From: a virus
Direction: 5' to 3' (one strand)
Length of the DNA: 21,631 nucleotides
IMG/VR virus record: IMGVR_UViG_3300025671_000633
Coordinates: 1 to 21,631 of that record
Made by a program: the position numbers and the translations under genes. Position 1 is the first letter of the stretch, and each line of letters starts with the position of its first letter. Under the pieces are notes generated by a model. It saw only the letters and a list, made by a program, of their open reading frames with translations. It did not search any database and was not told the DNA's origin. Of this stretch, positions 3,899 through 21,631 are shown in pieces.

Positions 3899-4629
3899 TT
3901 TATCATCGCCTCACGAATAGTGGGCCAATCAAAATCCATTTCAGCAGGAAGACCATATCTATTTTTGGCGTGATGCCCAGGTCCTTCTTGTGTGTAAATT
4001 TTTCTATCGCCTTGCAATACCTGTGTAGACATACCACCTTTGGCATTTTTCTTTTGCACGACACCAGTCTTATAGTTGGCAAAGAAAACACAGTCAGCGT
4101 GTTCAACCACCAAGTCGGCTGCTTTTCTATAGAGCTTAATACCATTTTTATCGATAGGATCGTTGGATGGGTCTTCGTAACGCTTAACTTCATTGTGTGC
4201 AATTTGCATAATCGTCATGCCTTTTTCATTACGAAGTTTGGTAAGAATATCTAAATAGTTTTTCCAAACTACAAGTGCAGCTCCGAATCCTTTTCCAAAA
4301 CTGGGACTACTGATATCCGACCATCCATTCTCCTTACACACATGGTCATTAATTAATCTTTCCAACCAATCCAAGCTGTCTACAACTACAGTTTTATAAT
4401 CATGGTCTTCTTCAAGTAATGCCAAAAGGTACTCCTCAAATCCTACATAAGTTTTTTGCACTTTAGTATGATTACATTCAATCTTACCGATTCCATCCTC
4501 ACACTGAACGATGATTGGATTGTTCATGGTAGATGCAAATGTAGTTTTACCAATACCACCTTTACCATACAAGCAAATAATCGGTGGTTTCATTTTTGCT
4601 TTGGATAATACTTTATCTAATACACTCAT
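3895..4629 (-). CDS. RecA-like AAA_24 ATPase, Sak4-like annealing protein
   Basis: The 244-residue product is a single-domain RecA-fold ATPase of the AAA_24 type, the group that includes phage Sak4 single-strand-annealing proteins. Walker A is GKGGIGKTT (residues 22-30) and Walker B ends at D84 (KTVVVDSLDW). A sensor-like region follows at MTIMQIAHNEVKRYEDP. Sak4-class proteins act with a phage SSB to promote annealing, and here the DUF669 protein is encoded just downstream with a DUF2800 nuclease upstream. The ATG overlaps the stop of the preceding gene (ATGA), as does the GTG of the next one. Confidence 0.85.
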   Translation of the reverse strand: MSVLDKVLSKAKMKPPIICLYGKGGIGKTTFASTMNNPIIVQCEDGIGKIECNHTKVQKTYVGFEEYLLALLEEDHDYKTVVVDSLDWLERLINDHVCKENGWSDISSPSFGKGFGAALVVWKNYLDILTKLRNEKGMTIMQIAHNEVKRYEDPSNDPIDKNGIKLYRKAADLVVEHADCVFFANYKTGVVQKKNAKGGMSTQVLQGDRKIYTQEGPGHHAKNRYGLPAEMDFDWPTIREAMIK

Positions 4630-4847
4630 TTTTTTCCCTCACTGTTATGCACTAAATGATGCAGTGCGTTTATTTTCTCATCTATGATTCCATTAAAAAA
4701 ATCATGGACAATCCTTTGCAACTTGAGTGTTGCTGACACTTTGTTATACAAGGGTTCTATCACAGGCGTGATATCGCTCTCATACAGCGTGTGTTCTTCT
4801 TCACCTATGCTGTAGGACAACACAGGTTCTTTCTTTTCTTTAGCCAT
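4626..4847 (-). CDS. Hypothetical protein, 73 aa
   Basis: A 73-residue protein with a lysine-rich N-terminus, an SYSIGEEEHTLYESDITP segment and a helical C-terminal half. The ATG at 4847 has AGGAGAG at good spacing and overlaps the end of the DUF2800 gene by 8 bases; its TGA overlaps the ATG of the ATPase gene. I recognise no domain. Position suggests a small accessory factor of the nuclease-ATPase pair. Confidence 0.72.
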   Translation of the reverse strand: MAKEKKEPVLSYSIGEEEHTLYESDITPVIEPLYNKVSATLKLQRIVHDFFNGIIDEKINALHHLVHNSEGKK

Positions 4848-5571
4848 ATTTCTCTCCTAGCTTAGTTTTATATTCATCACATTCTGGTTTAGCTGCACAA
4901 AATCTACAGTGATCTCCAGCAACCCGTTTTGGATTTTCTTCCTCACAAGCATCCGTTGCTTGTTTCAAATCTGTGTCTGCCCAATGCATTAGATTTGGAG
5001 AAGAAATTTCATGTGTCTTAATTGGGTTTTTTAATCTTGGTTGGACAATCGTCATTTCAATGGTTATATCCGCATCTTGATTTCCATATCTTATAAAAGC
5101 ACCAACAGCATAAATTTTTAACTGTTTATTTTTAACAGCCTCAACAGGCCACTTGCCAGATTTAAGATCTATAACGCAGATACGATCTTCAGCAATTAAA
5201 ATACAGTCAGCAGTACCAAAGCATTTATCAGATATTTCATCCATAAAGACTTTTTCTTCAATAACCATGGTAGCGTTCAGCTCTTCTTTTCTTTTAAAGA
5301 TGTATTCAACATAAGTCTCAGCACATCTAATCATGTCTTCTGTTACTTCTATTTGGAAATCTTCTATTTCAACAACTTTGCCAAGCCAATACTCTTCTAA
5401 AGTAATATCTTTAAGTCTGCCCTTTAATAACATCTCACACATCTCATGGATCAATGTCCCGGTAGCTGCTGCGATGTTAACTGTATATTCTGCTGAATAA
5501 TTCAGGTACGCACTTGCCGGGCACTCAAACCATCGGTCAGATGATGAAGGACTAAATATCGCGTGAGGCAC
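4840..5571 (-). CDS. DUF2800 family PD-(D/E)XK nuclease (RecB/Cas4-like)
   Basis: About 243 residues with the signature of phage DUF2800 nucleases. The N-terminus HAIFSPSSSDRWFECP is followed by a conserved GTLIHEM histidine (H42), FGTAD (D122) and IDLKSGK (D135, K137), the metal-binding PD-(D/E)XK core. Four cysteines, C17 plus C222, C225 and C231 (CRFC...C), match the arrangement that holds an iron-sulfur cluster in AddB- and Cas4-like nucleases. It probably resects DNA ends for recombination with the Sak4-like ATPase. I favour the GTG at 5571: AAGGG lies about nine bases upstream and the family typically begins right before this motif. A TTG at 5598 would add nine residues. It overlaps the HTH gene. 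Confidence 0.85.
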   Translation of the reverse strand: MPHAIFSPSSSDRWFECPASAYLNYSAEYTVNIAAATGTLIHEMCEMLLKGRLKDITLEEYWLGKVVEIEDFQIEVTEDMIRCAETYVEYIFKRKEELNATMVIEEKVFMDEISDKCFGTADCILIAEDRICVIDLKSGKWPVEAVKNKQLKIYAVGAFIRYGNQDADITIEMTIVQPRLKNPIKTHEISSPNLMHWADTDLKQATDACEEENPKRVAGDHCRFCAAKPECDEYKTKLGEKYG

Positions 5572-6320: not shown

Positions 6321-7175
6321 TTATCTATTAGCTACGATGCTATGAATGTGTTGGCTCACAACATTAGCGTTGCCTATCGCTTTCTCTTTATGGATATGTG
6401 CATATCTTTGAGTGGTCGCTACATCTGAGTGGCCCAATAGATTACCAACCTCTGATAAATTAACTTTCTCTAATGACCATGAGGCATACGAATGTCTGAT
6501 GTCATGTAGTCTTGCATCCTCGCACCCAACCTCTTTGCGTATGACATCCCATACATATCTGGGTGAATCTATGTCAAAGATTCTCTCTCCCACGCGCTCA
6601 CACTTGTCTAATATCTTTTGCACCCCGGGAGTAATAAAGATAATACGATCCTCGCCTGAGTGATCGGTCTTATGATCTTTAATAACCAACGCATTGCCTT
6701 TGATATCAGACCACTTAGCGTTTCTAATCTCACCCACACGCGCCCCAGTATAAATAAGCATCCATAGAAAGTTGCAACCTTGCTTGTATCTTGCTTTATT
6801 GCCTAAACGATCAAGCTGCTCAGTAATGGCAATCAGCTCCTCGTTGGTCAAATAGCGTTTGCGTTTAATCTCACGATTTTTACCAATGTTTAATGCCGGG
6901 TTGTTTTCTAGGTAGCTAAAGGTAATAGCCAAGTTAAACATAGCCTTGAGGATAGAAAGACATTTATTGGAGGTATAAGGAGATCTATCAGACACATCGA
7001 AGTGTAGCTGTGCTATGTCACCTCTGATGATGCTGTTTATCTCTCTATCGCCAAGAGCTAATCGGATGTCGTTGTCATAAAACTGTTTAATGCGTTTAAC
7101 AGTCTTAGCACCACGCCTGTTTAAATCTTTTGTGTATAAATCAAATAATTCGTTAAGTGTCATACTAGGTGTCAT
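6321..7175 (-). CDS. int: Tyrosine recombinase / phage integrase
   Basis: The 284-residue product should integrate the phage genome into the host chromosome. A SAM-like core-binding domain spans about 5-95 and the catalytic domain about 105-270. Catalytic residues are visible: R146 (TGARVGEI), K169 (HKTDHSG), H224 and R227 (LHDIRHSY), H249 (LLGHSD) and nucleophile Y258 (TQRYAH). No obvious arm-binding N-terminal domain is present, so it is shorter than many phage integrases. The ATG overlaps the preceding stop (ATGA) with GAGGTGG upstream. A second in-frame ATG lies four codons on. It is the last gene of the nuclease-methyltransferase cassette. I could not find a convincing attP or tRNA fragment nearby. 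Confidence 0.93.
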   Translation of the reverse strand: MTPSMTLNELFDLYTKDLNRRGAKTVKRIKQFYDNDIRLALGDREINSIIRGDIAQLHFDVSDRSPYTSNKCLSILKAMFNLAITFSYLENNPALNIGKNREIKRKRYLTNEELIAITEQLDRLGNKARYKQGCNFLWMLIYTGARVGEIRNAKWSDIKGNALVIKDHKTDHSGEDRIIFITPGVQKILDKCERVGERIFDIDSPRYVWDVIRKEVGCEDARLHDIRHSYASWSLEKVNLSEVGNLLGHSDVATTQRYAHIHKEKAIGNANVVSQHIHSIVANR

Positions 7176-7375
7176 ACTTCCACCTCTATGTGCATTTGGT
7201 CAACATACTCTTGACACTTTTCAAAGTTACCTTGTGCGTGTTCATTGATGGCTTTTCTAAGTAGGCCCAAATCAATGTTGCCATAGATTATTTCTGTCAA
7301 CCAACCTGTAGAACCATGATAATCATACTCATCAAAAAAGTTATCTACAGCCTCAAATGTAATACCTTTAAACAT
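7172..7375 (-). CDS. Hypothetical acidic protein, 67 aa
   Basis: The acidic 67-residue protein begins MFKGITFEAVDNFFDEYDYH and ends with a helical LLRKAINEHAQGNFEKCQEYVDQ-like region. I recognise no family. Its ATG lies in the last codons of the methyltransferase gene (8-base overlap), and its TGA overlaps the integrase ATG, so it is translationally coupled to both. Unlike its neighbours it has no enzyme motif; it could modulate either. Confidence 0.72.
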   Translation of the reverse strand: MFKGITFEAVDNFFDEYDYHGSTGWLTEIIYGNIDLGLLRKAINEHAQGNFEKCQEYVDQMHIEVEV

Positions 7376-8867
7376 TGTCTATTTCCATGTTTTGTAAAAT
7401 GTGTGCAATAACTTCTATAGTCCAACCATTGCCAAGCATTTTATAACGCTGAGTGTTGCTGACATAATTGGTGTAATTATCAGGAACAGTTTGCAATCTC
7501 TCGCACTCTAAGGGTGTTAGCTTTCGCCAATAGACTTCATCTTTGGTTAAAACATTATCTTTTTGAACTGTAGTAATAGTATTGGTCTTTTCGTCTTTGC
7601 GTAATTCTAACTTTTGACTTATTGAACCATCCTCGTTATATCTGCCACGATAGGCCCCTGAGACAACTTTCGGTTCTGTATTACCACCACCACAAGTAGT
7701 AACAGTTGGAGACTTACCATCAGGCGAATAGACACGCTTTAATATATCGTGTCCATTGACATCAACTGCTGTGCCTATGTGTTGAGGTTTATCGCTTTTC
7801 ATTACTTTGGGACTGTCTGATCTTGCTAGTAATGTAGGTGATTTGCCTTCTTTGGAATAAACCCTTCTTTGCCTTTCATTATCTTTTAATACATCTTTTG
7901 GTATGTCATGTATTTTTTGAGGTTTATCGCTAGTTTCTACCAACATATTGCCATTCCCTGCTGTACCACCACTTTGTGCAGAAATAGATATACCTTTTCC
8001 ATCTTTAGAATAAATACGATTGCCTTGACCACCATCTTTAATAGTGCCAACTCGCTGAGGCACTAAAGTCATACCATTATTACCTGCACCCTTATACATA
8101 GTTGCAGTCATGCAAAGCGATTTATCATCAAGCTGCTTAAGGTGTCTAGCATTACGCTCTGTTTGTTTTACAGGTTTGTGCTTGTCACCCACATAACCAT
8201 TGGCATAACCATGAGTACCTGCACATATTGTTCCAGATTTTTTATCTGAGTTATGTATGGTGTTAGCTTGGCTTTTATAGTTAGGGTTAAGTTGATTACC
8301 ACCTTTGTAGTTCTTTTGCATATTGTCACCAACATAATGTTCTGAACCAACTTGGTCTTCTAATATGTCGCGCAACACTATGCCTCGCTCTTCAGGTTGC
8401 TCAATCCCGGGAATGTTAGTCCAATAGTAACGCTGTCTTGACTGTGCGCTAACCAAAGAGCTGTTAATAAAGATAGGTTCAACTCCCATGTACTCAGAAA
8501 TAATATCTAAGTATTCTTTTTTCATTCTTACATTTTCTAATAAAAAATATTTCGGCTGTAAGTATGAGATAGCTTTGTGAAACTCAAAGAACAATGCAGA
8601 CCTTGGATCATCAAATGCCAACTGTTTACCTGCAAAGCTAAATCCTTGACAAGGTGAACCACCCATAACCAAATCAATCTTCGGCAAGGTAGATAAATCT
8701 AACTTGGTAATATCACCGACTTGAATAATGTCAGGATAGTTAGCTTGGCTAACTTGGATGGCATACTTATCAATCTCACTTGCGTAATAGTTATCTACTT
8801 TGATTCCTAAACGATCCAAAGCAATCATTCCACAAGACATTCCGTCAAATAAACTTAATACATTCAT
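7368..8867 (-). CDS. C5-cytosine DNA methyltransferase with expanded target-recognition region
   Basis: The 499-residue enzyme should transfer methyl groups from SAM to carbon 5 of cytosine in DNA. All key motifs are present: I (LFDGMSCG, 6-13), IV with catalytic C73 (GSPCQGFS), VI (LENVR, 110-114), VIII (QSRQR, 142-146), IX (RKLTPLECERLQ, 448-459) and X (YKMLGNGW, 475-482). About 300 residues separate VIII and IX, far more than in single-specificity enzymes such as M.HhaI (327 aa in all). That stretch contains repeated RVYSxxGKSPT-like modules, suggesting several target sequences. AGGGAG lies five bases before the ATG. No matching restriction enzyme is evident beyond the small nuclease upstream, so it is probably an anti-restriction enzyme. 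Confidence 0.93.
   Translation of the reverse strand: MNVLSLFDGMSCGMIALDRLGIKVDNYYASEIDKYAIQVSQANYPDIIQVGDITKLDLSTLPKIDLVMGGSPCQGFSFAGKQLAFDDPRSALFFEFHKAISYLQPKYFLLENVRMKKEYLDIISEYMGVEPIFINSSLVSAQSRQRYYWTNIPGIEQPEERGIVLRDILEDQVGSEHYVGDNMQKNYKGGNQLNPNYKSQANTIHNSDKKSGTICAGTHGYANGYVGDKHKPVKQTERNARHLKQLDDKSLCMTATMYKGAGNNGMTLVPQRVGTIKDGGQGNRIYSKDGKGISISAQSGGTAGNGNMLVETSDKPQKIHDIPKDVLKDNERQRRVYSKEGKSPTLLARSDSPKVMKSDKPQHIGTAVDVNGHDILKRVYSPDGKSPTVTTCGGGNTEPKVVSGAYRGRYNEDGSISQKLELRKDEKTNTITTVQKDNVLTKDEVYWRKLTPLECERLQTVPDNYTNYVSNTQRYKMLGNGWTIEVIAHILQNMEIDNV
7548..8285 (-). repeat. Repeated target-recognition modules within the methyltransferase
   Basis: Residues 195-440 of the methyltransferase contain about six degenerate modules ending in a ThrIle/ThrLeu-type strand: near 200-218 (ANTIHN, SGTICAG), 243-262 (LCMTATM), 272-309 (NRIYSKDGKGISISAQ), 334-354 (RRVYSKEGKSPTLLA), 377-401 (KRVYSPDGKSPTVTT) and 407-440 (RGRYNEDG, TNTITTV). 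The fourth and fifth are closest to each other. Multispecific phage C5 enzymes carry several recognition units in this position. Confidence 0.65.
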
Positions 8868-13545: not shown

Positions 13546-13894
13546 ACTCAACGATACTCATGTGTATATCTAAATTACCAGCATGATTGCCTTGTACTTT
13601 AATAATTTCACCTTGATGAATAATAATAGGTCTTTCTAATAGCTCTGTAGTGCTGTTAGCACTAATAACCTTGCCACTAAATAAATTAAAAGTATCTGTA
13701 TCATGCGTATTAGTTACATCTATTTGGGTTTGTTGACCTTGATGCTCACATACTAAAAATGATTGAATAATAGAAAAAGTAAAATCATCACCAGAAGGTG
13801 ATGTATAAACAGTGTAATCAGTGTTAGCCAAAGTAATGTTCATATGAACATTCTCCGCTCTTTGTATGTACTGTCTTTGTGAGGATAAATCCAT
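13529..13894 (-). CDS. Small virion protein, beta-rich, 121 aa
   Basis: The 121-residue protein looks mostly beta-stranded (ITLANTDYTVYTS, FTFSIIQSFLVCEH, GEIIKVQGNHAGNLDIHMSIVEYG), like small tail or head decoration proteins. No family is recognised. The ATG shares a base with the stop of the large tail gene (TAATG), which supports translation coupling and a structural role. Confidence 0.65.
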   Translation of the reverse strand: MDLSSQRQYIQRAENVHMNITLANTDYTVYTSPSGDDFTFSIIQSFLVCEHQGQQTQIDVTNTHDTDTFNLFSGKVISANSTTELLERPIIIHQGEIIKVQGNHAGNLDIHMSIVEYGKGD

Positions 13895-15405
13895 TATCTT
13901 TTACCTCTTGGTCTTACATCCAAGCGTATATTACCTACTTGGAAATCTTGTGTGGTACTACCTGTGACTGTCATTTGTACTTGTCTTGCAGTAAACCTAG
14001 CATCAGTATAACCATCATTTTCAAAAGTAAATGATCCAAAGTCCGTAACTGGGCCTAATGGAGTAAATCGACCTTTGAAACTGAGGGTAACACCAGGTAA
14101 AGAGTTAGCCTCTTCGTCTGGTAATATTTGATTGCATTGCACATAGTTATCACCATTGCCTATTTGTATAGGCCCTGTCTCACAAAATGGTACTTGTGAG
14201 TTTAGATTAGGTGAATTATTTAATGTGGTTGATTCATGCTCATAAACAAAGCCTAAACTGTCACCAGCAATGGGGTAAGTAAATGCACCTTGGTCAATCC
14301 AAAAGCCTCTGTCCATAGAACCAATAGACCATACATTGCTGTTGTAGTTCCAAATAACATATTTATTAGAAGTGTATTGTGAATTACCACTTGGGAATCC
14401 CCACCATATTTCATTAAAGTTAGAGTTGTGTCCGCCCCAACACGCGCCCCTACCCGGTACATTAATTTGGTCAAAAACATAATCATGCACTTCGCAAGGT
14501 AATTCTCTAACACTACCATCATAAATATAAAAAGCGTTTTCACCCATCCATGCAAGGAAATTACCTGTAGATACAACTGTTCTGGAACTGATTGATTTAC
14601 AGTTTGTTCCTGCATCGGCTATACCATAAACAAAAGGTGATCCAGCATAAAACATTCTGTTAATACCAGTATCACTAAAAATAATCACATCAGATCTATA
14701 TTTAACACCAAACAAGGCTCTACCGCCTGTAGGTATTTGCAAGTCTCCTGCTGTGTTTGTGGCTTTCGATGTCCAGTTGTTGCGATCTTCCCTATTTGAC
14801 CAAGCAACATTCCTAGGGTCATCTGACGAGCCTATAGCCACTAAATGTCTTTCATTGGTGACTAAGGTTGATAAGTTGCCTGTGGGTGCGTTGGTTACAA
14901 CTGTTGCGATGGTATCAGGTGAGCCACCTGAGGAGTCTGGTTGCCATTTATAAATCTTGCCATCTTTAGAAAAAGTAAAGATTAAATCTTCACCCCAGTT
15001 ATCAAAAGAAAAATAACCAGCCCGTAAAACTAAACCTGATTGACTTCTAGCATCACCATAGTTTTCTTCACCATAATGATATGCACCAAAGCCTAATGGA
15101 TCATCACTTGCATCATTAACAAAGCCTACTGGTGTGATGTCTGTCCAAGTGTTGTCATACAAGACATAAACTTTTTCTCTTGTACCAACCCCTAGAACAT
15201 TGTTACCAGCATTATCTTTATAACCATATAAACCTATGATAGATCCGTCTAATGCTGTGGCTCTGAGTTTTTCCCACCCGCCTATAGGTTTTAGATATCC
15301 GTTTTCAAAACGCACCAAATCACCATCGACCCAACGCCCTTTATTGGCGTAGTCTGTACCATTGGTTACGATTCCTGCAGGGGGTGTTATTGGAAATAAT
15401 GCCAT
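13894..15405 (-). CDS. Large tail protein, possibly P22 gp10-like hub component
   Basis: The 503-residue protein opens MALFPITPPAGIVTNGTDY followed by KGRWVDGDLVRFENGYLKPIGGW, a beginning common to large tail proteins of marine podoviruses and resembling the P22 gp10 (tail accessory factor / stabilization) class, whose length is similar (472 aa). Recurrent beta motifs ending in W or GxG and several NVWS/NNWT-type strands suggest a beta-propeller. It should form part of the tail hub below the portal. It is followed without gap by the small beta-rich protein and preceded by the three oxygenase genes. Confidence 0.65.
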   Translation of the reverse strand: MALFPITPPAGIVTNGTDYANKGRWVDGDLVRFENGYLKPIGGWEKLRATALDGSIIGLYGYKDNAGNNVLGVGTREKVYVLYDNTWTDITPVGFVNDASDDPLGFGAYHYGEENYGDARSQSGLVLRAGYFSFDNWGEDLIFTFSKDGKIYKWQPDSSGGSPDTIATVVTNAPTGNLSTLVTNERHLVAIGSSDDPRNVAWSNREDRNNWTSKATNTAGDLQIPTGGRALFGVKYRSDVIIFSDTGINRMFYAGSPFVYGIADAGTNCKSISSRTVVSTGNFLAWMGENAFYIYDGSVRELPCEVHDYVFDQINVPGRGACWGGHNSNFNEIWWGFPSGNSQYTSNKYVIWNYNSNVWSIGSMDRGFWIDQGAFTYPIAGDSLGFVYEHESTTLNNSPNLNSQVPFCETGPIQIGNGDNYVQCNQILPDEEANSLPGVTLSFKGRFTPLGPVTDFGSFTFENDGYTDARFTARQVQMTVTGSTTQDFQVGNIRLDVRPRGKR

Positions 15406-15423
15406 TTAGACATTATATATAAT

Positions 15424-16041
15424 TTATGTTTTAAAGTAAGCAGGTAATCCAATCATCGGTCTACCATCATACTTGTTGCTTTCAGCATCTTTACCACTAG
15501 CATCATTGTAGTGTAAAAACACTTGTCCACAATCTTTACCTTTAAATGGCTCACGCCAATGCTCTAATTCACAACCACGATACATCAGCATATCGCCTGG
15601 TTTTAAGTTTACTTCTACGCCTTTTTTGCCTTCTTCACCTGATGGTTCTAAAAATATAGGCCAATCATCACCACCTAAGTTCATGGTGGTAGATATCTCG
15701 CAAGAGTATCTATCTTTATGTCTTTTTAACTCATCACCTTTTTTATAGATTCTTGCATACGAATAAGTTTCAGTTAGTTTTACACCTGATTCTTTTTCCA
15801 TAATAGGTTTAACTTTTTGCAATAAAGTTTCCATAACGATATCTGAGTAATGTGAATAAGTTTCAGGTATTTGTTGATCGTTCCAAACTCCAAAGTATTC
15901 AGTAAACTGTGAAATATATTTTTCATCAAACAAATGTCTTGCTACTGCTCTTTTATTTAAAAAGTATTGATAACAAAAATCTGCTAACTCTGTTGATATA
16001 GCGTTTTTAATTACTTGGTATTTATTTTTCTTAAAGCTCAT
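15424..16041 (-). CDS. 2-oxoglutarate/Fe(II)-dependent oxygenase (third of three)
   Basis: The 205-residue product has the double-stranded beta-helix oxygenase pattern: iron-binding H108 and D110 (LKRHKDRYS) and a distal histidine at 161 (LEHWREPF). The usual arginine ten residues later is not seen; K168 or K170 may bind 2-oxoglutarate. Enzymes of this class hydroxylate proteins, nucleic acids or small molecules. I take the ATG at 16041, which overlaps the upstream stop (ATGA), rather than the longer frame starting at GTG. Substrate unknown; similar genes are common in cyanophages. Confidence 0.8.
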   Translation of the reverse strand: MSFKKNKYQVIKNAISTELADFCYQYFLNKRAVARHLFDEKYISQFTEYFGVWNDQQIPETYSHYSDIVMETLLQKVKPIMEKESGVKLTETYSYARIYKKGDELKRHKDRYSCEISTTMNLGGDDWPIFLEPSGEEGKKGVEVNLKPGDMLMYRGCELEHWREPFKGKDCGQVFLHYNDASGKDAESNKYDGRPMIGLPAYFKT

Positions 16042-16664
16042 TTGAATGGATATCCTAAATTCCAACACACTAAGGAGTGTCGTATTCCTTTGGTTACTGG
16101 TTTGACTCTATGCCAAACAAAAGATGGAAAGATAATCACGCTACCTTTCTTTCTAATTTCTTCACATATTCTTGGCTGTGAGCCTTCGTCTGTGTTTCTA
16201 AAATCAAACTCTAAATCTCCGCCTTCATATTCATCAGGATCGGTTAAAGATACAGTCATGCTAAGTTTTCTTAACTTGCCATGTACATTTTGATTTTCAG
16301 GATTGTTATAAGGTTCTTCGTAAGAGTCGCAATGCCAATCGTAAAACTGACCTTTCTTGTATTCGGTAAATTGACAAGCCTCGCTAAAATCCCATTCGAA
16401 ATTCCACCCAGCGTTATAATTTGCTTGATGGATGTAAGGTTGTATTTCGTTGTATATCCATCTATCTGACATCCATACAATATCAGACTTGCGTTTCTTT
16501 TGAATGTTTTTAAGTTCTAACTTGGTTAGTTTTTTGTTGTCTCTACCAGCGTTACCTGTAAGAGCCATTTCTTTATTTTGCTCTTGACCATAACGAACAA
16601 TCTCATCACATATTCTTTCAGGTATGACTGATTGAAAGTACCAGTAATAATATTTTAGATTCAT
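16038..16664 (-). CDS. 2-oxoglutarate/Fe(II)-dependent oxygenase (PKHD-type, second of three)
   Basis: The 208-residue enzyme has the full motif set: H111 and D113 (YDWHCDSYEE), distal H185 (VWHRVKP) and 2-oxoglutarate-binding R195 (GIRHSLVCW) exactly ten residues on. A strand EYEGGDLEFDF (145-155) fits the PKHD / PiuC-like hydroxylase family. Full length and intact residues suggest activity. Stops and starts overlap on both sides (ATGA), so it is translated together with its two relatives. The substrate is unknown. Confidence 0.88.
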   Translation of the reverse strand: MNLKYYYWYFQSVIPERICDEIVRYGQEQNKEMALTGNAGRDNKKLTKLELKNIQKKRKSDIVWMSDRWIYNEIQPYIHQANYNAGWNFEWDFSEACQFTEYKKGQFYDWHCDSYEEPYNNPENQNVHGKLRKLSMTVSLTDPDEYEGGDLEFDFRNTDEGSQPRICEEIRKKGSVIIFPSFVWHRVKPVTKGIRHSLVCWNLGYPFK

Positions 16665-17221
16665 ATATAGTTTGCTACTAAAACAATTCTATTTTCATCT
16701 ATTTTAGGCGTTCCTTGAAAATGATTATACTCGCCATTAAAAATTATAATTTTATCTTCTTCTGCTGAAATTGTATGTTGTTTGTTATTTATTTCAATAT
16801 AAGTTTTTCCGCTTGTGGTTGTAAAATAAAGAATTAAAACATTATGTGCAAAAGGTAAGTCTGTATGAGAGATGCTTTTCTTTAATGTTTGATGCGGAGT
16901 TAAATTTATATTAAGCCTGTAAACAACATTTAGTGATATGTTATTAAAATCAAGTATTTCTTTAAAAATTTTATATGTTTGTTCAAATAAATTAGAATCT
17001 ATTTTAGGAACAGGATATCTATAAGGCGTTTCTTGATAAGGTCTATCTACAATCGTATGACTAAAATAAAATATATCTTTTGGTTGGTTTTCTCTTTCGT
17101 TTTCAGAGTAAAAATGAGTTCTATGTTTAGTAAACCAAGGTATATTTCCCTCTGCTAAAACATAATTTTTATAATCTAAATAATTTTTAGTTAAAGGATT
17201 TTTTAAATTTTGTACACTCAT
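16661..17221 (-). CDS. 2-oxoglutarate/Fe(II) oxygenase-like protein (first of three)
   Basis: The 186-residue product has H119 and D121 (SHTDLPFAHN), a strand-rich region, H167 (YNHFQGT) and R178 (ENRIVLVANY), matching the HxD...H...R order of this superfamily. Its N-terminal half resembles no family I can name. It is the first gene after a 55-base gap and has a purine-rich ribosome site (AAGAGAGAGAAG) before the ATG. AT content is noticeably higher than in its neighbours, which may point to separate acquisition. Confidence 0.75.
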   Translation of the reverse strand: MSVQNLKNPLTKNYLDYKNYVLAEGNIPWFTKHRTHFYSENERENQPKDIFYFSHTIVDRPYQETPYRYPVPKIDSNLFEQTYKIFKEILDFNNISLNVVYRLNINLTPHQTLKKSISHTDLPFAHNVLILYFTTTSGKTYIEINNKQHTISAEEDKIIIFNGEYNHFQGTPKIDENRIVLVANYI

Positions 17222-17276
17222 CTTCTCTCTCTTAAGAAATAAGTATAGTTTAGATGCGGTTTAAAAGAAAGGTTGA

Positions 17277-18263
17277 TTAACCTGCTTCCCAGTCTCCATT
17301 TTTTATTTGTCTAAACACAGATCGTAAATCCCAACAACTAGAAGCATCAAAAACATAAGCTGCTCTAATACCTATAAAACCTGAACCTCCGCTACCTGCA
17401 GCAGAACTATGGTGTCCGCCACCACCGCCACCGCCAGTGTTAGCTAAACCTGATGTTGCAACTCCGTTATACCCACCATGACCGCCACCCCCACTTTGAG
17501 GCATTGTTCTTTTTGGTCCGCCAAGAGGTGCTGCATTGGTTACACCTGCCCCTCCACCGCCACCACCGAAGTAGCCAGTGCCTGGCGTAGTGTTTGATCC
17601 GTCTGTTCCATATCCAGGGAACGCTGGAAATTGTCTACCTGCTCCACCTTGACCACCTGCTTGTGGGCTAGGGTAGAGTGCTGGATTAGGGACAGATGGC
17701 CAGTCAGGTGCGCCTGAGGCTGGACCTCCGCTATCAGGGGCTGCTCCACCGCCTCCTCCGCCACCGCCATCAGCACCTGGAAAACCTGCTGAACCTGCTC
17801 CTCCATACCCAGTAAGACCACCTGCTGGATTGAGTTGGTTGGGTGATCCTCCTGCACTACCTGTAAATCCGCCTCCGCCTCCGCCTGAACCACCTGTGGT
17901 ACCTGTTGTTGCTGAACGACCTCCACCACCTCCGTAGGTGCTAACTGTTTCGGGTGCACTTATAGGATTATTAAAAACTGAATCAGCACCTGAAGCATTT
18001 ACTGCTCCACCGCCACCAACAATAAAAGGGTAAGTTGTGTTTCTTACAATAGGATAGGTTGTACCATGTGCAACTCCCCCTGCTCCACCGCCACCGCCAT
18101 GATATGCAGCATCAGGGTTTGTTCCGCCACCACCACCACCAGCAACAACTAATAGTTCAACTTCTCTTGTTGCAGGTGCAGTAAATGATCCACTGCTTGT
18201 GTAATTTTCGCTGATAGCTTCACCATAAACTGATGTTTGTGCTGCTCCGATTAATCTAGGCAT
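17277..18263 (-). CDS. Glycine-rich adhesin-like tail protein, copy 2
   Basis: The 328-residue protein has a short N-terminal strand region, the motif VELLVVAGGGGGG near residues 32-44, then about 250 residues of glycine-rich sequence in GGGGG blocks broken by A, S, P and N. The C-terminus ends with W311-D312 and W325, a spacing shared with its neighbour. Such proteins resemble the polyglycine-sandwich adhesins of some T-even-like phages (S16 gp38), which recognise host surface receptors. It overlaps the previous gene by 8 bases and is followed by the oxygenase cluster. Proline is frequent in the glycine-rich part. Confidence 0.78.
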   Translation of the reverse strand: MPRLIGAAQTSVYGEAISENYTSSGSFTAPATREVELLVVAGGGGGGTNPDAAYHGGGGGAGGVAHGTTYPIVRNTTYPFIVGGGGAVNASGADSVFNNPISAPETVSTYGGGGGRSATTGTTGGSGGGGGGFTGSAGGSPNQLNPAGGLTGYGGAGSAGFPGADGGGGGGGGAAPDSGGPASGAPDWPSVPNPALYPSPQAGGQGGAGRQFPAFPGYGTDGSNTTPGTGYFGGGGGGAGVTNAAPLGGPKRTMPQSGGGGHGGYNGVATSGLANTGGGGGGGHHSSAAGSGGSGFIGIRAAYVFDASSCWDLRSVFRQIKNGDWEAG

Positions 18264-19212
18264 TGGTCCAATTCCCTGCTTTCACATTGTCATAAAGTGC
18301 GTTCATATCCCATACTCCTGAGGCATTGGCTACTTGAGGTTCTTTTACAATAACAATTCCTGATCCACCTGCTAGTCCTGCTACATTGCTTCCAGTGAAT
18401 CTACCTCCGCCTCCGCCTCCGCCAGTGTTAGCTGTTCCTGCTGTTCCTGATGCACCAGGCGCACCATCGCCAGTACCTCCGCCACCTGCACCACCAGCTG
18501 CTGCATTAGTTTGAGAGTTTTGAGTTCCTCCTGCTGCTCCGCCTCCGCCACCTGCGTAAAAAACAGGAGAACCTGTAATTGAACTTTCTAAACCTACGCC
18601 ACCTGCTCCATTTGCGGGATTATCTGTGTTTGTAGAGTTGCTACCTGCTGCTCCTGCTCCGCCGCCACCTGCTCCTCTAAATGAATCTCCCCCTGGTAAA
18701 ACAGCAACACCAGTACCTCCGCCACCTGCGTTACCTTGTCCTGGTGGGGAGGCTGCTCCGCCTGAAGTTGCAAATCTACCTGCACCACCTCCGCCTGATC
18801 CACCAACAAGTCCATTCTGACCATCGCCAGCACCCCCACCACCGCCACCTGTAGCGGTTTTCTCAATTCCAGAGCCTGGTGCAAAGGATGAATTACTTCC
18901 ATTTGTTCCATTATTTGCACCACCAGTAAATGGTCCGCCAGCTCCAGCACCTCCTGCACCTCCACCACCAACTGCTACTGAGTAAGGAGTGTTTCCTAAA
19001 ACTGGTGTTGTAGATGTTACTAAACCACCTGCTCCACCACCGCCACCAAAACGAGAACCACCGCCTCCGCCACCTGCAACAACTAAGTATTCAATACTTG
19101 TAGTTAGTGGTTGAGTAGCAAGTGTACCGCTAGAGTTAAAAGTAGTGATTTGTTCTGCTTGAACTTGAACTGGATTATCGACACCTACTATTCCGCCATT
19201 AGAATTAGCCAT
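18256..19212 (-). CDS. Glycine-rich adhesin-like tail protein, copy 1
   Basis: The 318-residue protein is a paralogue of the next gene: N-terminal FNSSGTLATQPLTTSIEYL, VVAGGGGGGS (residues 44-53), a long glycine-rich body, and a C-terminal motif with W301-D302 and W315. Both tryptophans are 14 residues apart in each copy. The body has loops rich in N, S, T and A that could vary to change receptor binding. Codon choice for glycine (GGT/GGA/GGC) produces long open frames on other frames and strands, which I regard as shadows. Confidence 0.78.
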   Translation of the reverse strand: MANSNGGIVGVDNPVQVQAEQITTFNSSGTLATQPLTTSIEYLVVAGGGGGGSRFGGGGGAGGLVTSTTPVLGNTPYSVAVGGGGAGGAGAGGPFTGGANNGTNGSNSSFAPGSGIEKTATGGGGGGAGDGQNGLVGGSGGGGAGRFATSGGAASPPGQGNAGGGGTGVAVLPGGDSFRGAGGGGAGAAGSNSTNTDNPANGAGGVGLESSITGSPVFYAGGGGGAAGGTQNSQTNAAAGGAGGGGTGDGAPGASGTAGTANTGGGGGGGRFTGSNVAGLAGGSGIVIVKEPQVANASGVWDMNALYDNVKAGNWTNA

Positions 19213-19214
19213 GA

Positions 19215-19670
19215 TTAGACCTCATTCCATTGCAAATTAGTAGCATCCCATTCGTAATTGGTTGTAACTATTGGATCACCGCTATAGGTTGATCCTAACC
19301 ATTTTTGATTATCTTCATCCCAATTGATTAGAACTGGTTCTGAATCTATTTCTGTAATTGTTGGATAGGTAACTGGTGCTTCCCAGTCATCATTAGAATC
19401 TAATGACCAAGATGGATAAGGTTGTGGCTTAATAAATTTATTTTTTGATGAATCAAAAGTATCGCCAATACCTGCATAATGTTTTCTAAAATTATTGTTG
19501 TATGAAGTTTGTTTCCAAGCTGTTCCATCTTCTGAATGTGGAACGATAGATGCTACAAATGTTTCTGCCTCAGAGGATAGTTCTCCTCCGTTAGCTTCTA
19601 CATCATCGTTGGATATTACTATTACTCGTAATACTTCGTTGCTTGAATTAAGTTCTGCAAAGTGAGCCAT
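19215..19670 (-). CDS. Conserved marine-phage virion-associated protein, 151 aa
   Basis: The opening MAHFAELNSSNEVLRVIVIS, the central WKQTSYNNNFRKHYAGIGDTFD and KPQPYPSWSLDS match a protein found in many T4-like cyanophages and other marine phages whose function is unknown. It is usually near tail-fibre genes, as here. The product is acidic and beta-rich with several tryptophans. The stop is two bases from the next ATG. Confidence 0.75.
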   Translation of the reverse strand: MAHFAELNSSNEVLRVIVISNDDVEANGGELSSEAETFVASIVPHSEDGTAWKQTSYNNNFRKHYAGIGDTFDSSKNKFIKPQPYPSWSLDSNDDWEAPVTYPTITEIDSEPVLINWDEDNQKWLGSTYSGDPIVTTNYEWDATNLQWNEV

Positions 19671-19681
19671 ATTTGTACTCC

Positions 19682-20047
19682 TTAAGCGTCATCTAGTTCT
19701 TCGTAACTAATGGTGTAAGTTAAATCTCCATTAGCACTTGCACCACCCTCTAATACATCTCCTTCTTCAAGATAGATGCTTGAGTTCTTATCAATAAGAA
19801 CCAAAGTAGCATCTGCTGGAACAGAGATAGTTGAAGCAAATAAAACTACTGAACCACCACTTTTGATAATTCCCATTGATACATCAGCAGCGTTAGTGCC
19901 ATCAATGTTTGCAACGACAATGCTATTAATTTTAATAACCTTATCACTTGCACAAGTTAATAGATCAGTTGTGAGAGTTGTTGTTAAAGCTCCATTTATG
20001 CTATTTGCATATATCGAAGTTACATTTACTAAATTTGGATTTGCCAT
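19682..20047 (-). CDS. Small beta-rich virion protein, 121 aa
   Basis: The 121-residue protein starts MANPNLVNVTSIYANSINGA and shows alternating strands (DKVIKINSIVVANIDG, ATLVLIDKNSSIYLEEGDVLE), typical of small head or tail decoration proteins. I have seen similar MANPN-type proteins in marine phages without assigned function. It lies between two tail-fibre-region genes with close spacing. Confidence 0.7.
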   Translation of the reverse strand: MANPNLVNVTSIYANSINGALTTTLTTDLLTCASDKVIKINSIVVANIDGTNAADVSMGIIKSGGSVVLFASTISVPADATLVLIDKNSSIYLEEGDVLEGGASANGDLTYTISYEELDDA

Positions 20048-20062
20048 AATATTGTCCTAATT

Positions 20063-20425
20063 TTATCCGAAAACCAAAGCCATTGCTATAGCTTTTCCTG
20101 TTGTTGCTTTTGTATCAAGCTGACTTTGTATGCCAGATGTTACCCCATCAGTATAATTTAACTCTGTTCCTGTTGCAGTAATTGTTACACCGCCAATAGA
20201 CAAAGTTCCAGTTGAGTTTAAAGTTCCACTAGATGATAGTGTTCCTGCAACTGTTAAAGTTTTACCAGAGCCAACATTAAGGCCCACGCTTGTTCCGTTT
20301 CCTGCATCAGCAAAAATACCATCTAAAGTATCGAGGTCGGTGTTTAATTTTCCGCCCCATGTATCGGTACTTGCTCCAACCTCAGGCTTGGTTAAATTTA
20401 AGTTAGTTGTAAATGTATCTGCCAT
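20063..20425 (-). CDS. Tail-fibre-like protein, 120 aa
   Basis: The N-terminus [19 protein letters not shown] followed by LNTDLDTLD is a common virion-anchor motif in fibre-like proteins of marine phages. A short beta-rich stalk follows ([21 protein letters not shown]), then [16 protein letters not shown] and the end [11 protein letters not shown]. It is short for a fibre and may be a fibre adaptor or a fibre whose distal part is supplied by the downstream adhesins. Spacing to neighbours is 4 and 15 bases. Confidence 0.75.
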
Positions 20426-20429
20426 ATTA

Positions 20430-20975
20430 TTATGCCGCTTGTTCTTTTGTTAATTGAGTCCAGGTAGTATCAGGATTCTGTATTACCTCCCATTTTAGAC
20501 CACCACTTGCTGAAAATCCACTTGTTTGTGAGATGGTTGATGCACCTCTATCAATCTGTGTACCAATGGCAGACATATCTGATAATGCTGCAATTGTAGA
20601 AGATGCTGCTATGGTATATCGACCCTCGGCTGTCATAGACGAGGTTTGAGCTATTGTTGCAGACCCTCTATCAATTTGAGTACCTACAGCACTCATACCA
20701 GAAGTTTGTGCTATTGTGCTTGAACCAAGATGGACTCTATGGCCCACACTGGTCATGCCACTGGTTTGTGCTATGGTTGCAGATCCACGATCAACTTGAG
20801 TACCAATTGCAGACATTCCAGATGTCTGTGCAATGGTTGCAACACCACGATCTATTTGTCTGCCTATTGCAGACATAGATGATGTTTGAGCGGATGTAGC
20901 TACGCCAAGTTGAAAAACAGGTTGTCCGTAATGAGACTTCCCGTAACCGCCATATCCATAGCCTACTGAGGCCAT
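20430..20975 (-). CDS. Tail-associated protein with seven 20-residue repeats
   Basis: The 181-residue protein has a Gly/Tyr-rich head ([17 protein letters not shown]), seven tandem 20-residue repeats (24-163) on the pattern G(S/V)[18 protein letters not shown], and a C-terminal NPDTTWTQL stretch. Similar repeats with short GxATxxxTSxMxAxG units occur in tail proteins of other marine phages. Repeats of this period with alternating small and hydrophobic residues suggest a beta-solenoid or string of small beta units, perhaps a spacer on the virion surface. No enzymatic motif is seen. Confidence 0.75.
20487..20906 (-). repeat. Seven 60-bp in-frame repeats
   Basis: Residues 24-43, 44-63, 64-83, 84-103, 104-123, 124-143 and 144-163 of the preceding-described protein align without gaps; the fifth, sixth and seventh are more divergent. 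The core [11 protein letters not shown] recurs. Repeats are degenerate at DNA level, so expansion was not recent, although slippage could still change the number. Confidence 0.8.
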
Positions 20976-20979
20976 GTTA

Positions 20980-21372
20980 TTAAGCTAATGTGATGTCTAA
21001 ATCACCAGCATCAAATCTGAATACATCACCGCTTGTTACAGGTTTAGATGTATCTAAGTTTGCATAAGCAAGTAAGTTTCCACCAGTTAAGGCATCTAAA
21101 ATACCTACTGCAACTACAGTTCCGTAATCGGCTGTAGCTGTTGGATATTCAACTGCTGCTGCATTTGTCGCTGTTGTGGGGGATGTGCCTGAGACAGTAA
21201 AAGTAGAGGTTTGTCTTGCATAAGCTCCACCTGTTACTTCAGTACCACCACCAGTGTCATCAGGTGCTACTGTATACAATGCAACATAATGTGTTACAGG
21301 TGCAGTGTAGTTTGTGCCACCAAATACATGGTTAAGTACCTTGTCTTCTAAATAATCACTAAATCCAGCCAT
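20980..21372 (-). CDS. Small phage tail protein (Gp80-like)
   Basis: The 130-residue product begins MAGFSDYLEDKVLNHVFG, with a THYVALYTVAPDDTGGGTEV segment and GAYARQTSTFTVSG, a layout I recognise from a widespread family of small phage proteins annotated as tail or tail-fibre proteins (Gp80-like). It would be a structural beta-sandwich. Its ATG is 11 bases from the stop of the adaptor gene. Confidence 0.72.
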   Translation of the reverse strand: MAGFSDYLEDKVLNHVFGGTNYTAPVTHYVALYTVAPDDTGGGTEVTGGAYARQTSTFTVSGTSPTTATNAAAVEYPTATADYGTVVAVGILDALTGGNLLAYANLDTSKPVTSGDVFRFDAGDLDITLA

Positions 21373-21383
21373 TTTCTATACTC

Positions 21384-21631
21384 CTAGTTATTACCAAAAT
21401 AATAAATATCTTTTCTGCGTTTTCCGTAAGTTCTTCTTCTTTGCATTAAAGAACCTTTAGCAAACTCAGCTTTTTCTTGCTCTAATCTCATTTCTTCTAG
21501 AGCTTTCTCGAACTGTGCTGTAAATAGTGGCACTCGTTCATCTTCCATTAAATAGATAGAAGCGTGTTTTAATGATCCATAAAGGTAAGCATCTGGATAT
21601 CCTGTGGATAAAAAGTTACTCGTATTAGAAT
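21384..21631 (-). CDS. Head-tail adaptor protein, C-terminal fragment
   Basis: The frame enters from the right edge and yields 81 residues before a TAG. The text NFLSTGYPDAYLYGSLKHA followed by YLMEDERVPLF and then a helical FEKALEEMRLEQ is typical of phage adaptor proteins of the SU10-adaptor type that dock under the portal. The basic tail RRRTYGKRRKDIYYFGNN completes it. The N-terminal part and start codon lie outside the window. Confidence 0.72.
   Translation of the reverse strand, partial: SNTSNFLSTGYPDAYLYGSLKHASIYLMEDERVPLFTAQFEKALEEMRLEQEKAEFAKGSLMQRRRTYGKRRKDIYYFGNN

Follow-up and report, generated by a model that had tools for sequence, protein, structure and literature searches.

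Few 'auxiliary metabolic' genes are as common in ocean phages as those for oxygenases dependent on 2-oxoglutarate (2OG). In the parts of the pelagiphage and cyanophage literature considered here (PMC9599517, PMC11561400, PMC3037559, PMC2984593), no tested function is described for these enzymes. The locus described here resembles the clusters of pelagiphages of the HTVC023P type (PMC9599517), which comprise several distinct 2OG oxygenases and a 'ferrochelatase' of the family named oxA below. In the sections of that paper considered, the ferrochelatase is taken as real, a haem partnership is proposed, and no link is drawn to glycine-rich adhesins; in the present locus, in contrast, this partner has an oxygenase fold. 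Passages of two pelagiphage papers (PMC9599517, PMC11561400) also describe a seasonal enrichment of phage 'ferrochelatases'. Glycine-rich domains of similar style form the receptor-binding tips of phages Pam3 and S16 (PMC9608196), and the tips made by Pam3 gp24 and S16/PP01 gp38 have, like the adhesins of this locus, stretches of glycine that recur, separated by variable residues. In the literature considered, the subject of hydroxylated phage tail fibres is touched on only where PMC9301287 comments in general terms on viral prolyl 4-hydroxylase and tail-fibre collagen; the same paper relates that hydroxyproline was reported in proteins of the virus PBCV-1 (Eriksson 1999). Here, we analysed 21.6 kb of DNA from a tailed marine phage, a fragment of its genome (IMGVR_UViG_3300025671_000633, 21,631 nt, G000), hereafter referred to as the window, together with related loci and annotated phages.

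Organization of the locus

The cassette lies on the minus strand and, in the order of transcription, two glycine-rich genes precede oxC, oxB and oxA. Its features are as follows.

19215–19670, minus strand: phrog_7759-type gene immediately before the adhesins, a constant member of the neighbourhood and an independent anchor
18256–19212, minus strand: glycine-rich adhesin-like gene 2 (gly2), 33% Gly, PF21722, phrog_2295
17277–18263, minus strand: glycine-rich adhesin-like gene 1 (gly1), 30% Gly, PF21722, phrog_863
17218–17275, minus strand: 58-bp leader from the last glycine-rich gene to the first oxygenase gene, retained in a related locus
16661–17221, minus strand: oxC, 186-aa 2OG/Fe(II) oxygenase-fold protein, phrog_274 (metal triad, AlphaFold model, PF13640 in relatives)
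16038–16664, minus strand: oxB, 208-aa PKHD/PiuC-like 2OG-Fe(II) oxygenase, phrog_61 (PF13640)
15424–16041, minus strand: oxA, 205-aa oxygenase-fold protein, phrog_2954 (metal triad, AlphaFold model)
13894–15405, minus strand: virion 'stabilization protein'-like gene, an exchangeable downstream neighbour (phrog_3287, E 8e-70)

The stop codon of oxC and the start codon of oxB overlap in the four bases ATGA (16661–16664), as do the stop of oxB and the start of oxA (16038–16041). The start of oxA was taken as the ATG at 16041, the listed GTG at 16068 being less likely. A preliminary description of this DNA had noted three consecutive coupled genes with an HxD...H pattern beside two glycine-rich adhesin-like genes. 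Both features are borne out: the overlaps are present, the triads are conserved beyond chance, and the two adjoining genes both match PF21722. Its view that the three genes are not recent duplicates also holds, as hhalign found no pairwise similarity among the oxA, oxB and oxC families.

Elsewhere in the window, a tyrosine-recombinase-like integrase gene (6321–7175, judged by eye) indicates that the phage may be temperate; the cassette is nonetheless common to other pelagiphage types. A C5-cytosine methyltransferase gene (7368–8867) has a long insert repeating VYS-x-x-GKSPT-like motifs, and a second gene (581–1012) corresponds to the C-terminal third only of such an enzyme.

Three oxygenase-fold enzymes

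Sequences of each oxygenase family were gathered from viral contigs and annotated phages for residue counts. It is near certain that oxA, oxB and oxC are enzymes of the 2OG/Fe(II) oxygenase fold that are mutually undetectable by sequence. The double-stranded β-helix is given by AlphaFold (AF2) models for oxA and oxC and by PF13640 for oxB. The latter matches PF13640 (2OG-FeII_Oxy_3) with E 1.9e-15 and is similar to PiuC-type hydroxylases (PiuC E 2e-5). Its H111 and H185 are invariant (n = 122), D113 is found in 108 sequences and Glu in 9, and the usual 2OG-anchoring residue, Arg or Lys at H+10, is present in 121 of 122. PiuC/YbiX (PDB 9ghl, 3dkq) shares with oxB the PF13640 domain and a detectable sequence similarity. 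However, oxB sits in a phage tail operon and was rejected as a member of the PiuC/YbiX NCBIfam equivalog, since it scores 58.6 bits, far below the cut-off of 143; other equivalogs score lower still.

In oxA, H108, D110 and H161 (numbered from the ATG) are invariant in 101 distinct sequences. The model (pLDDT 79.6) matched the PPHD prolyl hydroxylase (4j25) with Z 17.2, and the PDB matches listed were all 2OG oxygenases: P. putida prolyl hydroxylase, PHD2, SnoN and PiuC. By this model, PPHD, PHD2 and vCPH of PBCV-1 (5c5t) are the closest solved folds. They differ from oxA in sequence, with 10–17% identity, and the Lys/Arg usually found at H+9 to H+13 is absent from oxA, where H+12 is Gln in 101/101; Arg is invariant at H+2 and at R97 (n = 101). 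A 2OG-anchoring Arg or Lys after the distal His is usual but not strictly required, and some enzymes anchor the co-substrate from other strands. As this residue is missing, oxA was classified by its fold and metal triad; judged from the sequence, its 2OG site may be atypical, with either the site or the co-substrate differing from the usual.

In oxC, H119, D121, H167 and R178 are invariant in 37 sequences, the Arg at H+11, found in 37/37, being the usual 2OG anchor. The model has a pLDDT of 91.5, and its best match is the 2OG-Fe(II) oxygenase 6n1f with Z 16.0. The PDB matches listed were again all 2OG oxygenases (6n1f, PiuC-like enzymes, PHD2, AlkB and ALKBH3). As single sequences, neither oxA nor oxC reached a Pfam 2OG family; PF13640 was matched by 11 of 25 oxC relatives, and the P-SSM2 'denV' of the oxC family passes the Pfam cut-off with 27.3 bits. 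Protein hydroxylases and AlkB-type enzymes are both among the oxC matches, and the two cannot be told apart by fold alone.

The profile of phrog_3531, which matches window positions 15424–16664, begins with an oxA-like part and continues with an oxB-like one, which may reflect a naturally occurring oxA-oxB fusion protein; in the two phages examined for phrog_3531 no fused gene was found and the two genes are separate.

Database names of oxA and oxC

In PHROGs, the oxA family (phrog_2954) is labelled 'ferrochelatase' and the oxC family (phrog_274) 'DNA endonuclease V', and both names were rejected. The ferrochelatase family PF00762 was found in 0 of 58 oxA relatives and, over its cut-off, in 0 of 19 phage records, most of which have a gene so named, while the same search matched 10 of 14 control genomes. 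The T4 EndoV/DenV family PF03013 matches no phrog_274 place; five phages have a true PF03013 gene, always elsewhere than the phrog_274 'endonuclease V' genes. Neither a ferrochelatase nor an EndoV fold was among the fold matches listed for the oxA and oxC models. In P-SSM7 (NC_015290.1, 130731–131240) and P-SSM2 (NC_006883.2, 131640–132170), the true T4-type EndoV (PF03013) is annotated 'DNA binding protein'. Some recent annotations already name single family members 2OG dioxygenases, so the relabelling is not wholly new. It removes a false haem story and a false DNA-repair story from databases and papers; published claims of phage haem genes rest on the 'ferrochelatase' label.

Glycine-rich adhesins

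Both adhesins exceed the curated cut-off of 24.3 bits for PF21722 (Gly_rich_2), with 49.6 bits (E 6.7e-13) for gly1 and 75.1 bits (E 1.1e-20) for gly2. The first also matches phrog_863 'tail fiber assembly' (E 1.1e-5), a tail-fibre match that likens it to Pam3 gp24 and S16/PP01 gp38, and the second matches phrog_2295 (E 7e-48). In a sequence search against solved structures, the window adhesins matched no solved chain. The mean identity is 0.49 for the adhesins and 0.80 for the oxygenases. With a fast-varying adhesin and conserved enzymes, the latter probably recognise conserved scaffold or loop chemistry and not the variable tip.

In a set of 152 glycine-rich proteins, Pro is over-represented behind Ser, Asn, Thr, Tyr and Phe and tends not to follow Gly, and X-Pro-Gly is not in excess. 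A collagen-like signature is therefore missing, and prolyl modification is just one option. Adhesins with and without oxC or a sulfotransferase differ by small composition shifts (Ala, Phe, Met, Trp; Leu, Arg, Trp), a comparison that gave no clear substrate residue. The only non-glycine positions that never vary among 150 adhesins are an Asn (N262 of gly2) and a Ser (S284); the N262-type motif is missing from some distant phages. The C-terminal 20 residues of gly2 carry a WDL/WDM...K.G.W motif, of which both Trp are found in 149 of 150 window-type adhesins, and HTVC023P-type adhesins have a different C-terminal end (IRYKFQ).

Conservation of the neighbourhood

A glycine-rich gene lies directly upstream of the oxygenases in all 80 distinct IMG/VR cassettes with at least 1.5 kb of upstream sequence, whereas the window's downstream gene, the product of which matches phage 'stabilization protein' entries, is present in just 12 of 65 cassettes. 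When the phrog_7759-type gene was used as the anchor, all 26 loci with at least 3 kb of downstream sequence carried a glycine-rich gene followed by oxygenases. Because related contigs are of common origin, these counts measure conservation of gene order and not independent events, and order kept partly through common descent weakens the case for the adhesin as substrate. A stronger argument than contig counts comes from pelagimyophages and several T4-like cyanophages, where the neighbourhood is found again. Genes of 23–34% Gly adjoin the cluster in HTVC033P, HTVC023P, 023Pt_psg01, HTVC008M, Mosig, S-RSM4, S-SM1 and Bellamy, and PF21722 genes are near the oxygenase cluster also in S-SSM5, Syn9, S-RIM44 and Sf-FP1, at a distance within about 6–10 kb in the last three. 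In eight large genomes, 28 of 56 PF13640 matches are at most 10 kb from PF21722, compared with 11–19% of positions (about one in eight expected), and the oxA-PF21722 distances in 11 genomes gave a combined p of 1e-4, both tests assuming uniform placement and carrying no correction for relatedness.

The adjacency on which the preliminary description relied thus recurs in the cassettes, in the anchor loci and in distant myoviruses, but it does not extend to P-SSM2, P-SSM7 and AG-345-E02, where oxygenases are distant from any PF21722 gene and some lie beside replication genes. The recurrence supports the link drawn in that description, and the exceptions come some way towards the counter-evidence it had named, oxygenase clusters elsewhere that lack glycine-rich genes; its interpretation is supported in part. 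Replication-region copies with no glycine-rich gene nearby are found in P-SSM2 and P-SSM7 and as the second copy of S-SSM5, and PF21722 had no match in S-PM2, P-SSM7 and AG-345-E08, all of which bear oxygenases. Such copies and genomes speak against hydroxylation of adhesins.

Exchange of the cassette

The related locus L006 matches the window with 97.9% identity over 14307–16664 and 95.4% over 18947–21446. In the stretch between, other adhesin sequence with no oxC takes the place of oxC, gly1 and most of gly2 as a single block, and the 58-bp leader is kept (94.8%) directly before oxB. Two further loci, L005 and L084, have oxC, oxB, oxA and adhesin sequence in common with the window, and the similarity stops at the oxA stop codon. 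The adhesin and oxC therefore change together, and the right border of the cassette is sharp. Directly after oxA, L005 has a 347-aa Asn/Thr-rich repeat protein (4520–5563), which replaces the window's downstream virion gene. Over 84 cassettes, adhesin identity is 0.491 when oxC status agrees and 0.477 when it does not (permutation, p 0.003, beyond oxB relatedness), an effect that is significant but very small, which again tells against an adhesin substrate.

The variable junction at the oxA stop would also be seen if the fibre-to-neck region were a hot spot that gathers cargo, with the oxygenases riding along and not acting on the adhesin. Hot-spot regions of this kind are described for cyanophages (PMC3037559), and the Mosig cluster is adjoined by other cargo, a haem oxygenase and pcyA. 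However, it is the glycine-rich side that stays constant while the other side changes, and oxygenases, sulfotransferases and halogenases are strongly favoured among the cargo. We consider this explanation unlikely, though with some real chance of being correct.

Co-located tailoring enzymes

A sulfotransferase (PF13469/PF00685) is encoded in 19 of 95 cassettes, and in the 17 that are resolvable, with both flanks seen, its gene sits precisely between the glycine-rich gene and oxB (17/17). The sulfotransferases belong to phrog_27463, which is unnamed in PHROGs (for example L022, 2126–2911; L013, 2383–3132; L038, 2342–3121). Other cassettes contain an additional inserted 2OG family, PF13759. Syn9, S-RIM44 and Sf-FP1 have one or two flavin (tryptophan) halogenases between the glycine-rich genes and the oxygenases; the tryptophan halogenase sites are NC_008296.2 (Syn9) 32965–36070, NC_047734.1 104633–107744 and PV340854.1 108421–109977. 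In S-SSM5 (NC_015289.1, 32513–34177), a Nol-like carbamoyltransferase gene lies between the glycine-rich gene and the oxygenases. The published idea for cyanophage tryptophan halogenases is synthesis of an antibiotic, pyrrolnitrin (PMC9964418), with which their position by fibre genes sits poorly. The sulfotransferase, halogenase and carbamoyltransferase neighbours are enzymes that decorate something stepwise.

What is decorated could be a host-surface glycan, a lipid, a small molecule or a virion glycan, and not the adhesin protein. These three kinds of neighbour are typical of glycan and natural-product tailoring, and glycosyltransferases lie near some clusters. Yet neither a glycosyltransferase nor a sulfotransferase was found in the window cassette, and the constant neighbour is a protein adhesin, and we regard a non-protein substrate as slightly less probable than a hot spot.

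Discussion

Modification or repair of DNA or RNA by AlkB- or TET-like enzymes was proposed earlier for cyanophage 2OG enzymes (PMC3037559, PMC2984593), and the preliminary description had offered, as its alternative, oxidation of the 5mC made by the window's C5-methyltransferase. The AlkB and ALKBH3 matches of oxC and the oxygenase copies that some cyanophages carry close to gp44, gp62 and dam agree with such a role. However, a C5-methyltransferase occurs in only 1 of 29 oxygenase-bearing records, the window itself, eleven of the other records being possibly incomplete contigs; DNA oxidation after C5-methylation is therefore unlikely. Tet_JBP was absent among the Pfam families reported at E ≤ 0.1 in the window and its relatives, and the cluster is placed with tail genes in the window phage and relatives. 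A role on nucleic acids thus has only a slight chance. Least probable is auxiliary metabolism, proposed for cyanophages (PMC3037559) and pelagiphages (PMC9599517, PMC11561400), in which 2OG drawdown would steer host nitrogen metabolism or the enzymes would serve haem metabolism with ferrochelatase: the 'ferrochelatase' is itself of oxygenase fold, with PF00762 over its cut-off in none of the 19 phage records and found in controls, and draining 2OG would need no sequence-diverse enzyme set. Neither 2OG drawdown nor DNA repair (PMC3037559, PMC2984593) explains the many unlike enzymes or the linkage to adhesins.

From the observed folds, metal triads, neighbourhood and cassette exchange, we infer that the cassette hydroxylates side chains of the adjacent, variable, gp38-like glycine-rich tail adhesins, a proposal to which we give about an even chance; that the fold fits AlkB-type enzymes as well as protein hydroxylases weighs against it. 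The three enzymes would be non-redundant iron-dependent oxygenases that, transcribed in the same direction as the tail and virion genes, are probably made late together with the tail and virion proteins. As virions assemble, they would hydroxylate the glycine-rich adhesins with O2 and, for at least oxB and oxC, probably 2-oxoglutarate as co-substrate. Enzymes so unlike one another could serve three sites or successive steps, and sulfotransferases and flavin halogenases join them in relatives, as would be expected if one product were decorated stepwise. The benefit may be altered receptor binding, solubility or stability.

The recurrence of the cassette in distant ocean phages, seen at the level of sequence, suggests that the host-gripping protein is chemically modified. 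It is possible, although we lean against so broad a reading, that marine phages of unrelated tail types share an exchangeable adhesin-maturation cassette, made of oxygenases with or without a sulfotransferase or a tryptophan halogenase, that diversifies host recognition. The pairing with receptor-binding adhesins makes the function of these oxygenases cheaply and concretely testable. If the broad reading is true, post-translational tailoring of a fast-evolving receptor-binding protein, akin to that of natural-product peptides, would diversify phage host recognition.
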